A stretch of 37,708 bases of DNA. It comes from a bacterium. GTDB taxonomy: Bacteria; Bacteroidota; Rhodothermia; Balneolales; M1805. Location: positions 1 to 37,708 of the forward strand of contig SBGQ01000052.1 in NCBI GenBank assembly GCA_006226965.1, read 5' to 3'. This document shows, piece by piece, positions 23,824-28,245 of the stretch. The notes beneath the pieces are model-generated. The model was not told the origin of the DNA. It made no database searches and worked only from the letters and a program-made list of their open reading frames with translations. Both the position numbers and the translations under genes were made by a program. How positions within the stretch are numbered: the stretch's first letter is position 1; each line of letters begins with the position of its first letter.

Positions 23824-24075
23824 ATGATTGATTTTATTGGAAATGCCGGTTTGGTTTTACTTTTAGCTGCATGGGTTCCTCAAACTTGGGATACCGTAAA
23901 ACGTGGCTCTACACCGATTACGCTTGGTTTTATCTTGTTATACATGGTATCTAGTTTTTTATTGACCGTATATTCGGTTATGCGTGACGATACCGTATTT
24001 ACCATTCTTAACGGTGTACTTACATTCGGGAGTGCTATCAATTTGTTTTATAAGATATCCCCAAGAAAAAAGTAG
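23824..24075 (+). CDS. SemiSWEET-like/PQ-loop small membrane protein
   Basis: A protein of 83 residues, the length of a bacterial SemiSWEET (three membrane helices, functional as a dimer). Helix 1 ends in the PQ motif (LLLAAWVPQTWDTVKRGST), helix 2 is FILLYMVSSFLLTVYSV and helix 3 is FTILNGVLTFGSAINLFYKI with the conserved Asn. These proteins move small sugars by alternating access. The protein is divergent enough that sugar transport is a family-level inference. The methionine leader begins 85 bases downstream. Confidence 0.75.
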   Translation: MIDFIGNAGLVLLLAAWVPQTWDTVKRGSTPITLGFILLYMVSSFLLTVYSVMRDDTVFTILNGVLTFGSAINLFYKISPRKK

Positions 24076-24122: not shown

Positions 24123-24154
24123 TTGCATCGTATTTTTAAAAAACCATATCATTG
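24123..24154 (+). promoter_or_regulatory. Possible Bacteroidota-type promoter of the methionine leader
   Basis: TTG at 24123-24125 and TATCATTG at 24147-24154 resemble the -33 (TTTG) and -7 (TAnnTTTG) elements of Bacteroidota, with 21 bases between them and one mismatch in the -7 box. The implied start of transcription is near 24158-24161, almost on the leader ORF's ATG. That would make a leaderless or very short 5' end, so this assignment is weak. Confidence 0.25.
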
Positions 24155-24159
24155 ATGCC

Positions 24160-24225
24160 ATGAAACAAATCGCAACTCTTATTTCTTGTTGTATGTGTTG
24201 TATGCGCGAAAGCCATACAGCATAG
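24160..24225 (+). CDS. Cysteine-rich leader peptide of the methionine operon (21 residues)
   Basis: ATG at 24160 and TAG at 24223-24225 enclose 21 codons. The core reads SCCMCCMRE: TGT codons at positions 10, 11, 13 and 14 and ATG at 12 and 15. Four cysteines in five residues is far above chance and is the hallmark of a leader peptide that senses charging of one tRNA. The stop codon lies inside the 5' arm of an antiterminator (24218-24227), whose 3' arm is shared with a terminator. When Cys-tRNA is short, a ribosome stalled on the TGT codons leaves 24218-24227 free and the antiterminator can form. A ribosome that reaches the stop codon covers that arm and the terminator wins. The peptide itself probably has no other function. 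Confidence 0.8.
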   Translation: MKQIATLISCCMCCMRESHTA

Positions 24226-24262
24226 GGATTTGTTCAAACTGTTTTTTGAAAGCCCTGTGTTG
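24218..24262 (+). promoter_or_regulatory. Antiterminator of the cysteine attenuator
   Basis: CAGCATAGGG (24218-24227) pairs with CCCTGTGTTG (24253-24262) over ten continuous base pairs, two of them G-U. An upper stem TTCAAA (24233-24238) with TTTGAA (24245-24250) stacks inside it. The lower 5' arm overlaps the leader stop codon. The lower 3' arm contains the bases that form the 5' side of the following terminator, so both structures cannot exist together. Confidence 0.7.
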
Positions 24263-24284
24263 AATCTCGACTCAGGGCTTTTTT
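24249..24284 (+). terminator. Attenuator terminator after the leader peptide
   Basis: AAAGCCCTG (24249-24257) pairs with CAGGGCTTT (24273-24281). After one T-T mismatch an inner stem GTTGA/TCGAC (24259-24263/24267-24271, one U-G) closes on loop ATC. Six T follow the stem (24279-24284). It lies between the leader peptide and the SAM riboswitch and, when formed, would stop transcription before the riboswitch is made. Confidence 0.9.
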
Positions 24285-24301
24285 GTTCTTTCTCTTGATT
24301 T

Positions 24302-24421
24302 CTCATCAAGAAAGGTGGAGGGACAGGCCCTGTGATACCTTAGCAACCGCTTCGATTAACACCCGAAGGTCAGGTGCTAAATCCTGCTGCCTCGATAGAA
24401 ATATCGAGTCGGGAAGATGAG
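24302..24421 (+). ncRNA. SAM-I (S-box) riboswitch aptamer
   Basis: All conserved blocks are present in order. The P1 strand CTCATC (24302-24307) pairs with GATGAG (24416-24421). The kink-turn segment GGTGGAGGGACAGGCCC is followed by AGCAACC, AGGTGCTAAATCC, a P4 hairpin with CTCGAT/ATCGAG arms, and GGGAAGATGAG. These match the SAM-I consensus closely. Binding of S-adenosylmethionine stabilises P1 and favours the downstream terminator, lowering expression of the methionine genes when SAM is plentiful. Confidence 0.97.
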
Positions 24422-24468
24422 TAGAAGTTGGTTATCCATATTGGTCTGTATTCCAGATGATTTTATGT

Positions 24469-24508
24469 AAGCCTCTTTCGGACTCAATTCCCGGAAGAGG
24501 CTTTTTTT
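24469..24508 (+). terminator. Riboswitch-controlled intrinsic terminator
   Basis: AAGCCTCTT (24469-24477) pairs with AAGAGGCTT (24495-24503), followed by seven T (24502-24508). It is the expression platform of the SAM-I riboswitch, 26 bases before the first structural gene. GGAAGA in the aptamer's 3' side (24412-24417) can pair with TCTTTC (24474-24479), a plausible antiterminator when SAM is absent. Confidence 0.92.
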
Positions 24509-24534
24509 ATTGATTTTAACCAACGGAATACTCC

Positions 24535-26372
<1,838 letters not shown>

Positions 26373-26554: not shown

Positions 26555-27103
26555 ATGAGTACACACTCTGTCATTCAACCAAACGCTGAACAAATCAGAC
26601 AATCTGTAAACGCTGTTATCGGAAACATTACTACGAATACAGATAAAGCGAATGCCGTTTTTACGGCTCGTTCTGAACTAAAAGACGGCTTATTGGCAAA
26701 AATAAATATTCGTGATTTTCAATTGATTATTGATGAACCCAACTCTTTAGGCGGCACCGATTTAGGCCCGAATCCGGTTGAAGTCGTATTAGGTGCTTTA
26801 GGCGCTTGCCAAGAGATTGTTGTGAAAGCGTATGCATCCGTTTTAGGTATTGAAGTTAGCTCGGTAAAAGTAGAAGCACAAGGACATTTAGACTTGCGTG
26901 GTTTCTTTAATCAGGCTGATGTTCGTCCGGGTTTTAAAGAGGTGAAGTTTAACACTATCATCGAAACAGAAGAAACCGATGCCGAAAAATTAAAAAGCTT
27001 ACAGTTCTTTGCTGAAAACCGTTGCCCTGTATTGGACATCATCCAAAATGCAGTAGCAACAAGCGGTTCCATTGCATTCAAAAAGCCGAAAGTAGCAGCA
27101 TAA
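26555..27103 (+). CDS. OsmC-family protein
   Basis: A protein of 182 residues. The OsmC fold is indicated by NSLGGTDLGPNPVEVVLGALGACQEIVV with Cys85 and by the second conserved cysteine Cys157 in ENRCPVLDII, the pair that acts in thiol-dependent peroxide reduction in OsmC/Ohr proteins. The first 30 residues are an extra N-terminal extension. Its position between metY and metX ties it to sulfur metabolism. Whether it reduces peroxides or handles sulfur species here is not shown by sequence. Confidence 0.9.
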   Translation: MSTHSVIQPNAEQIRQSVNAVIGNITTNTDKANAVFTARSELKDGLLAKINIRDFQLIIDEPNSLGGTDLGPNPVEVVLGALGACQEIVVKAYASVLGIEVSSVKVEAQGHLDLRGFFNQADVRPGFKEVKFNTIIETEETDAEKLKSLQFFAENRCPVLDIIQNAVATSGSIAFKKPKVAA

Positions 27104-27192: not shown

Positions 27193-28245
27193 ATGTCCGA
27201 AACACTCAAATTTTATTCATTAGATTCCCAGTTTGTAACCGAAAAAGGTGAAAAAATAGATCTGCCGGTAGTGGCTTATCATACATGGGGAAAACTCAAT
27301 GAAAATCGTGATAATGTTGTTTTAGTTTGCCATGCTTTAACAGGAAGCAGTGATGCTGAAGACTGGTTTTCTGGATTCTTTACAGAAGGTTTGTTCGATT
27401 TACAAAATCAGTTTGTAATCTGTACCAATGTGTTAGGCGGCTGTTACGGCACAACAGGACCTCAAAGCATTAATCCGCAAAACGGAGAACGTTTTCAAGG
27501 GAATTTTCCTGAGATTTCGATTCGTGATATGGTTCGTTTGCAGCAAAAATTGATTGATTCTCTAGGTATTACAGGCATTGAACTGGCAATTGGCGGATCA
27601 ATGGGCGGTATGCAGATTTTGGAGTGGTCTATTTTGGATTCAAGAATTCAAAAAATGATTGTAATCGGTGCAAATGCACAACATTCAGCTTGGGCTATCG
27701 GAATTTCTGAGGCTCAGCGCAGCGCTATTTATGCTGATAAAAATTGGAACAACGGATTTTATCAACCCAACAGGCAACCGGAGCAAGGTTTGGCTGCTGC
27801 ACGAATGATGGGTATGCTCACATACCGTACTTATGAAAGTTTTAATCAGAAATTTGATAGAAATCGTCAGGCAAAAACCGAGCAATTTCAGGTACAATCG
27901 TATTTGAATTATCAGGGTGAAAAGCTTGTAAAGCGTTTTGATGCATTGACTTACGTTCGTTTGACACAAGCTATGGACTCACACGATATTTCTCGTGATA
28001 GAGGTACGGTGAAAGAAGTTCTCAATCAGGTTACGATTCCGGCTCTTATCATTGGAATTGACTCCGATATTTTATATCCGCCGGTTGAACAAAAGGAATT
28101 AGCGCATCATTTGCCTCGAGGGTATTACAAAGAAATTCGCTCCATTCACGGGCATGATGCGTTTTTAATTGAATTCGACCAGATGATTTCAATTATAAGT
28201 CCGTTTTTGAATTTGCAACGTGAAAAAGTTACAACTAAACTGTAA
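27193..28245 (+). CDS. metX: Homoserine O-acetyltransferase
   Basis: An alpha/beta hydrolase of 350 residues. The catalytic triad is Ser136 in GGSMGGMQ, Asp292 in GIDSDILYP and His321 in HGHDAFL; other MetX features are CHALTGSSDA near residue 47 and NVLGGCYGTTGP near residue 79. It transfers acetyl from acetyl-CoA to homoserine, giving the substrate of the metY product encoded upstream. Acetyl rather than succinyl specificity is inferred from family membership (MetX-type) and pairing with MetY. The gene abuts the convergent GH-A gene with no spacer: its stop ends at 28245 and the neighbour's begins at 28246. Confidence 0.95.
   Translation: MSETLKFYSLDSQFVTEKGEKIDLPVVAYHTWGKLNENRDNVVLVCHALTGSSDAEDWFSGFFTEGLFDLQNQFVICTNVLGGCYGTTGPQSINPQNGERFQGNFPEISIRDMVRLQQKLIDSLGITGIELAIGGSMGGMQILEWSILDSRIQKMIVIGANAQHSAWAIGISEAQRSAIYADKNWNNGFYQPNRQPEQGLAAARMMGMLTYRTYESFNQKFDRNRQAKTEQFQVQSYLNYQGEKLVKRFDALTYVRLTQAMDSHDISRDRGTVKEVLNQVTIPALIIGIDSDILYPPVEQKELAHHLPRGYYKEIRSIHGHDAFLIEFDQMISIISPFLNLQREKVTTKL

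Follow-up and report, generated by a model that had tools for sequence, protein, structure and literature searches.

Organization of the metY locus

The window, by which we mean the whole stretch of 37,708 nt that was analysed, comes from a genome of family f1 of the salt-loving Balneolales, the sole f1 genome in our comparison set. It carries an operon in which a gene for a CoA-binding protein is followed by metY, an OsmC-like gene and metX (Table 1). Ahead of these genes lie two sensors in series on one 5' leader: a short leader ORF with a first terminator, and then a SAM-I riboswitch with a second. The SAM-I match spans the whole RF00162 model (1-108) and starts 15 nt past terminator 1, and we found no SAM-I beyond this one in the window genome. 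A previous sequence-only reading had placed a leader attenuator and a full SAM-I here, each with its own terminator; folding, the RF00162 match and a search for terminator arms confirm both elements and put the two terminators in the same positions. That account was incomplete in that it lacked the boxA-like element between the two switches, the probable leaderless start, and the link of the leader to metY together with its absence at metH, all of which are described below. A consensus terminator scan that allowed loops of 3-8 nt listed neither terminator; this is not counter-evidence, because the loop of terminator 2 is 9 nt long and the stem of terminator 1 is imperfect.

Table 1. Features of the leader and operon, with the basis of each assignment
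Feature	Position	Strand	Basis and details
Bacteroidota-type promoter	24123-24154	+	TTG 24123-24125, 21-nt spacer, TATCATTG 24147-24154
Leader peptide ORF MKQIATLISCCMCCMRESHTA, 21 codons, probably leaderless	24160-24225	+	sequence; comparable ORFs at 91 loci
Control codons Cys-Cys-Met-Cys-Cys-Met	24187-24204	+	sequence
1:2 (protector) hairpin, competes for region 2	24196-24222	+	folding; arms 24196-24204 / 24214-24222
Region 2, CAGCATAGGG, over the stop codon; partner of region 3	24218-24227	+	nascent folds; covariation
Region 3, CCCTGTGTTG, in the 5' arm of terminator 1; alternative partner of region 2 (antiterminator) and region 4 (terminator)	24253-24262	+	nascent folds; covariation
Intrinsic terminator 1 (3:4 hairpin and U-tract)	24249-24284	+	folding, arm search; arms 24249-24263 / 24267-24281, 15 nt, 87% complementary; U-tract 24279-24284
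boxA-like GTTCTTT (putative NusB-S10 site)	24285-24291	+	conservation, rRNA-leader match
SAM-I (S-box) aptamer	24300-24423	+	RF00162, 80.6 bits, gathering score 44.4
Predicted SAM-I antiterminator (P1 3' strand and flank with terminator 2 5' arm)	24416-24490	+	nascent fold to 24490
Intrinsic terminator 2 (SAM-I expression platform)	24469-24508	+	arms, conservation; arms 24469-24481 / 24491-24503, 92% complementary, 9-nt loop; U-tract 24502-24508
CoA_binding_2 protein, first operon gene	24535-25011	+	PF13380, 1.2e-38
metY, O-acetylhomoserine sulfhydrylase	25053-26372	+	TIGR01326, 687.8 bits, cut-off 495
OsmC-like protein, between metY and metX	26555-27103	+	PF02566, 9.5e-18
metX, homoserine O-acetyltransferase	27193-28245	+	NF001209, 380.7 bits, cut-off 331

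The leader ORF and its control codons

Promoters in Bacteroidota have a TTG around -33 and a TAnnTTTG around -7. From the promoter of this type in the window, transcription is predicted to start at about 24159-24160, which coincides with the AUG of the leader ORF; because the promoter lies so near this AUG, the leader mRNA is probably leaderless. Most leaders in families f1-f4 likewise have TTG at -40 to -34 and TA at -16 to -11 before the leader start, a promoter-to-AUG spacing that does not hold for the leaders of family f56.

The leader ORF of the window contains four Cys codons and two internal Met codons, all within the control cluster. When one leader is taken for each of 28 genera, Cys makes up 20.1% of the residues and internal Met 13.9%, and both are present in the leaders of all 28. 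The cluster varies in length and order among loci (MCMCC, CCMSC, MMCMMCC and CCRMDCMCM are examples), and the rest of the peptide shows little conservation from genus to genus. What stays constant is the position of the cluster, a short way ahead of the stop codon and region 2. In one locus, L077 (genome G463), the leader MKKVMSMSMSMMSCLGG, 50-150 nt upstream of the aptamer, has a single Cys and five internal Met codons.

The element had been read as a cysteine attenuator. As an attenuator it holds up, and its restriction to cysteine probably does not: because internal Met codons occur in all 28 genera, we regard the leader as a sensor of both sulfur amino acids, which would probably be triggered by a lack of charged Cys- or Met-tRNA. 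Sensing of cysteine alone, with the Met codons arising by chance or from the needs of the hairpin (UGU-AUG-UGU), would fit the higher frequency of Cys in the leaders, and leaders with cysteine codons alone have been described in Mycobacterium (PMC1262725) and ahead of cysS (PMC8632094). We nonetheless consider it unlikely given the constancy of internal Met, the Met-dominated leader of L077 and the fact that the operon makes a precursor of methionine.

A short, Cys-rich peptide could also act by means other than tRNA charging, through nascent-peptide arrest (arrest leaders occur elsewhere), through metal binding or as a gauge of translation stress. This seems very improbable, since the peptide outside the cluster is poorly conserved, and a cluster whose length and order vary while its place ahead of region 2 and the stop codon stays constant is as expected for codon sensing.

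Alternative pairing in the leader RNA

The leader RNA (24160-24292) folds with a free energy of -47.2 kcal/mol (z = -6.2), and none of 200 shuffled sequences is as stable. In nascent folds extended to 24264, a ribosome placed on Cys14 or Met15 leaves a structure of -18.5 kcal/mol that contains the 10-bp 2:3 antiterminator. With the ribosome moved to the stop codon, the fold drops to -3.5 kcal/mol and has no antiterminator. Equilibrium folding of the complete leader retains terminator 1 at all simulated stall positions but one, so the switch must be kinetic, with the 2:3 pairing forming first. Such a dependence is usual in attenuators of this kind.

The same arrangement recurs in the relatives. 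Terminator and antiterminator occur together at 86 of 91 leader loci, with a median antiterminator energy of -16 kcal/mol and p < 0.05 against shuffled region 2 sequences in 67%. Across 51 genus-and-arm representatives, the pairing between region 2 and region 3 of the same locus has a mean energy of -13.9 kcal/mol, compared with -11.05 kcal/mol for swapped partners, and none of 5000 permutations does as well, in a statistic that ignores phylogeny. In L046, GGAGAGCC / GGCTCTCT / AGAGAGCC replaces the usual AGGG / CCCT / AGGG, so that the change is kept on all three strands; three-strand compensatory changes are also seen in L087. In the window, as at the loci inspected for covariation, region 2 lies over the stop codon or directly next to it. 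At the level of sequence the leader thus has clustered control codons, a mutually exclusive and covarying terminator and antiterminator, and a region 2 that a ribosome on the stop codon would mask.

The gene upstream of the leader (23824-24075) is codirectional with the operon in the window, and for this reason terminator 1 might be taken for the 3' end of that gene, with the ORF present by chance. The sequence-only reading had itself named this as a finding that would count against it. We rejected this assignment and give it hardly any credence: the nearest long upstream frame is divergent in 26 of the 88 testable relatives, the antiterminator and terminator covary on three strands, and the leader is called at none of 22 metH loci and in only 1 of 717 shuffled regions.

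A boxA-like element between the two switches

The segment between terminator 1 and the aptamer contains GTTCTTT, which is found exactly at 101 of 108 metY-type loci, at none of 22 metH-type loci and in 12 of 655 shuffled sequences. At the metY-type loci it nearly always lies 15-25 nt ahead of the aptamer. The bin of the window genome has no 16S gene. The rRNA leaders of relatives in the order (G191, G467, G112 and G065) have GTTCTTT or GTTCTCT, in the forms GTTCTTTGAGAATATTGA, TGTTCTTTGACCGATTGAA, CGTTCTTTTTCTTAGTGAA and TGTTCTCTGACATAG, at 119-180 nt before 16S, where a boxA is expected. In the genome of the window, GTTCTTTNANA occurs 108 times against 89 for the reversed control; this excess is slight, and the case for a boxA is accordingly built on position and conservation, which suggest that NusB-S10 may load at this site. 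Among loci L001-L160, GTTCTTT is found ahead of SAM-I-metY in further families of the phylum, ones without the leader, so the boxA-like site is either older than the leader or independent of it. At eight loci (L121, L133, L136, L138 and L145 of genus g14, and L095, L041 and L037) the leader has been lost or was never present and the boxA-like site is kept; several of these have a small hairpin ahead of it. An rRNA-type boxA in the 5' leader of an mRNA has a parallel in suhB (PMC5725501), and in the literature that we searched we found no description of a boxA upstream of a riboswitch.

The presence of a conserved sequence here also bears on whether the two sensors share a transcript. A promoter between 24285 and 24301 would separate the leader from the riboswitch, as the sequence-only reading had noted. 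What is conserved at this place is GTTCTTT, which matches the rRNA boxA of the order and neither TTG nor TAnnTTTG, and the consensus promoter scan found no plus-strand promoter at 24285-24301. Furthermore, at loci that lack the leader, such as L121, a promoter-like sequence lies upstream of the GTTCTTT site. We rejected a promoter in this interval, and separate transcripts are thus most improbable.

The SAM-I riboswitch and its terminator

The aptamer and the terminator that follows it place the second element in the SAM-I class, and a response to SAM would be expected of it. A terminator follows the aptamer at 107 of 109 non-metH SAM-I loci, compared with 4 of 22 metH-type loci. The leader as a whole is not a tandem riboswitch in the sense of two ligand-binding aptamers; it contains one Rfam aptamer, and its first sensor is the leader ORF. 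An inverted repeat, TCTTGAT / ATCAAGA, at 24293-24311 of the window could sequester the 5' strand of P1.

Conservation at metY and absence at metH

RF00162 was found in 114 of the 128 genomes of the order, and we examined 131 loci. An automatic call, defined as a Cys/Met-rich ORF and a terminator upstream of SAM-I, identified the leader at 91 of 109 non-metH loci (nearly all of them metY or CoA-binding-metY), at 0 of 22 metH-type loci and in 1 of 717 shuffled upstream regions. Four more leaders (L032, L039, L075 and L077) were recognized by eye. Relatives of the window genome within the Balneolales include Fodinibius, Gracilimonas and Balneola. A second order of the phylum shows the same layout at eleven loci (L313, L323, L326, L329, L341, L380, L383 and L385-L388), with MKIQIKNTSGKLNMAMCMCCMCNIGPR as an example of its leaders. 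The search for this arrangement in relatives, which had been proposed as a check, has thus borne it out. Elsewhere, at SAM-I-metY loci from further families of the class and from other parts of the phylum, we saw no convincing leader (L021 gave one weak call). The genome-wide Cys-Met-Cys codon pattern was too unspecific to pick out further leaders.

The arrangement varies within the order. In genus f2:g2 (L048, L069, L088 and L107), the Cys/Met ORF is retained and terminator 1 is absent; there the ORF lies inside one long hairpin and stops about 22 nt before the aptamer, with the boxA-like site in between. The five g14 loci of the Balneolales have no leader altogether.

Seven genera of family f3 have a second SAM-I ahead of metH. 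At metH, SAM-I is accompanied by neither a leader nor a boxA-like site, and 18 of the 22 copies also lack a strong terminator; for these reasons their control is probably translational. The leader module is therefore tied to metY and not to SAM-I as such. The metH-type SAM-I loci include L023, L035, L036, L040, L047, L049, L052, L054, L060, L061 and L067.

Sulfur metabolism in genomes with the leader

MetY converts sulfide to homocysteine, and it had been suggested that the operon also serves cysteine needs. This suggestion receives partial support. A match to the cystathionine β-synthase (CBS) family is present in 124 of 124 genomes, although a weak match in an incomplete genome does not prove a CBS, because CysK-type paralogues match the family too. 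Of the 91 leader-carrying genomes, 42 have no strong cysE match, and 28 of these 42 are at least 95% complete; in genomes of this kind homocysteine may be the main route to cysteine. The window genome stands on the other side, since it has cysE and cysK adjacent on contig C35. Here the homocysteine route would be additional and not the sole one, and a need for cysteine is no obvious reason for the leader.

For the homocysteine route itself, the window genome has candidates for the two genes that the sequence-only reading had proposed to look for, both scoring just under cut-off: a full-length CBS-family match (C177:30562-31917; 509 bits, cut-off 510) and a cystathionine gamma-synthase/lyase-type gene (C54:31856; 510.1, with a best-model cut-off of 513). 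No leader was seen before CBS or cysE in this genome. A second sulfhydrylase-type gene at G000:C45:39477-40616 is nearest to O-succinylhomoserine sulfhydrylase models, below their cut-offs.

A model for serial attenuation

We consider it likely that the leader comprises two serial attenuators whose combined output is high when Cys- or Met-tRNA is uncharged and SAM is low. RNA polymerase would start at or beside the leader AUG, and a ribosome would load onto the 5' end of the RNA. With both Cys- and Met-tRNA charged, the ribosome would reach the stop codon and cover region 2, so that terminator 1 halts transcription. Were either charged tRNA scarce, the ribosome would stall on CCMCCM, 2:3 pairing would follow and the polymerase would pass terminator 1. 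In the absence of translation, the default would probably be off, because the 1:2 hairpin competes for region 2. The boxA-like site would be transcribed next, possibly loading NusB-S10 and shielding the untranslated riboswitch RNA from Rho. Bound SAM would hold P1 and allow terminator 2 to form; at low SAM, the 3' strand of P1 would instead pair with an arm of this terminator, permitting expression of the operon.

This logic of two sensors on one transcript agrees with that put forward in the sequence-only reading, and it is supported by the lack of a promoter between them, by the census and by the covariation; the regulation itself is what we infer from these features. Such an AND gate would be sensible physiologically, in that at high SAM the homocysteine from SAM recycling could supply cysteine.

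More tentatively, the leader may form a gate of three stages, in which the Cys/Met attenuator acts first, a Nus complex assembles at boxA on escaped polymerases only, and the resulting Rho-resistant complex reads SAM-I. If this were true, the ribosome, the Nus machinery and an aptamer would be coupled in fixed order, an arrangement kept at metY and absent at metH.

Relationship to known systems and significance

The leader resembles the trp, his, ilv and thr attenuators in having its control codons late in a short ORF, the 1:2, 2:3 and 3:4 pairings and a stop codon in region 2. It differs from them in that Cys and Met codons occur together, in that it is found in Bacteroidota with a riboswitch in series, and in that it is probably leaderless. 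A leader ORF is combined with an ion signal on one leader RNA in Salmonella mgtA, where Park et al. are said in 2010 to have described MgtL proline codons together with Mg2+ sensing; the Salmonella mgtCBR leader reportedly has tandem attenuators. In mgtA the signals are integrated in one region, whereas the present leader has two complete modules, one after the other.

The nearest known logic is that of the T-box and SAM tandems of Bacillota, such as that of ssuABC (PMC12452182), in which a sensor of tRNA charging precedes a SAM riboswitch within a single transcript. The T-box RNA binds tRNA directly, whereas here the sensor would be the ribosome. The SAM-I leader of Xanthomonas (PMC7270179) also reports both SAM and Met-tRNA charging, but it does so by binding uncharged initiator tRNA directly and its control is translational. 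Leaderless polycysteine sORFs of mycobacteria, reportedly the subject of Canestrari et al. 2020 (PMC8764745), similarly place runs of Cys codons before sulfur genes. Those sORFs are described as acting by translation attenuation or as having no conserved terminator hairpin (PMC13236596, PMC1262725), whereas the leader described here has a conserved intrinsic terminator and antiterminator, Met codons and SAM-I. The uORFC-8-2 motif of cysS in Rhodobacterales (PMC8632094) resembles it in having a Cys uORF followed by an intrinsic terminator, but it controls a tRNA synthetase, and no riboswitch or Met codons are described for it. In the open-access literature that we searched, we found no account of a SAM riboswitch preceded in series by a leader-peptide attenuator.

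Most of the known leader attenuators of amino-acid operons come from Proteobacteria and Actinobacteria, and some from Firmicutes (PMC2965389). Here a conserved attenuator in Bacteroidota, with codons for reading both cysteine and methionine, is stacked on a SAM riboswitch. The arrangement is directly testable, because its carriers include the cultured Fodinibius sediminis, F. roseus, F. salsisoli and Gracilimonas mengyeensis, and the SAM-I copies at metH, which occur in these same genomes with no leader, no boxA and mostly no terminator, provide a built-in control. The leader would constitute a natural AND gate that joins translational demand to a metabolite at MetY, an enzyme able to supply both cysteine and methionine by way of homocysteine.
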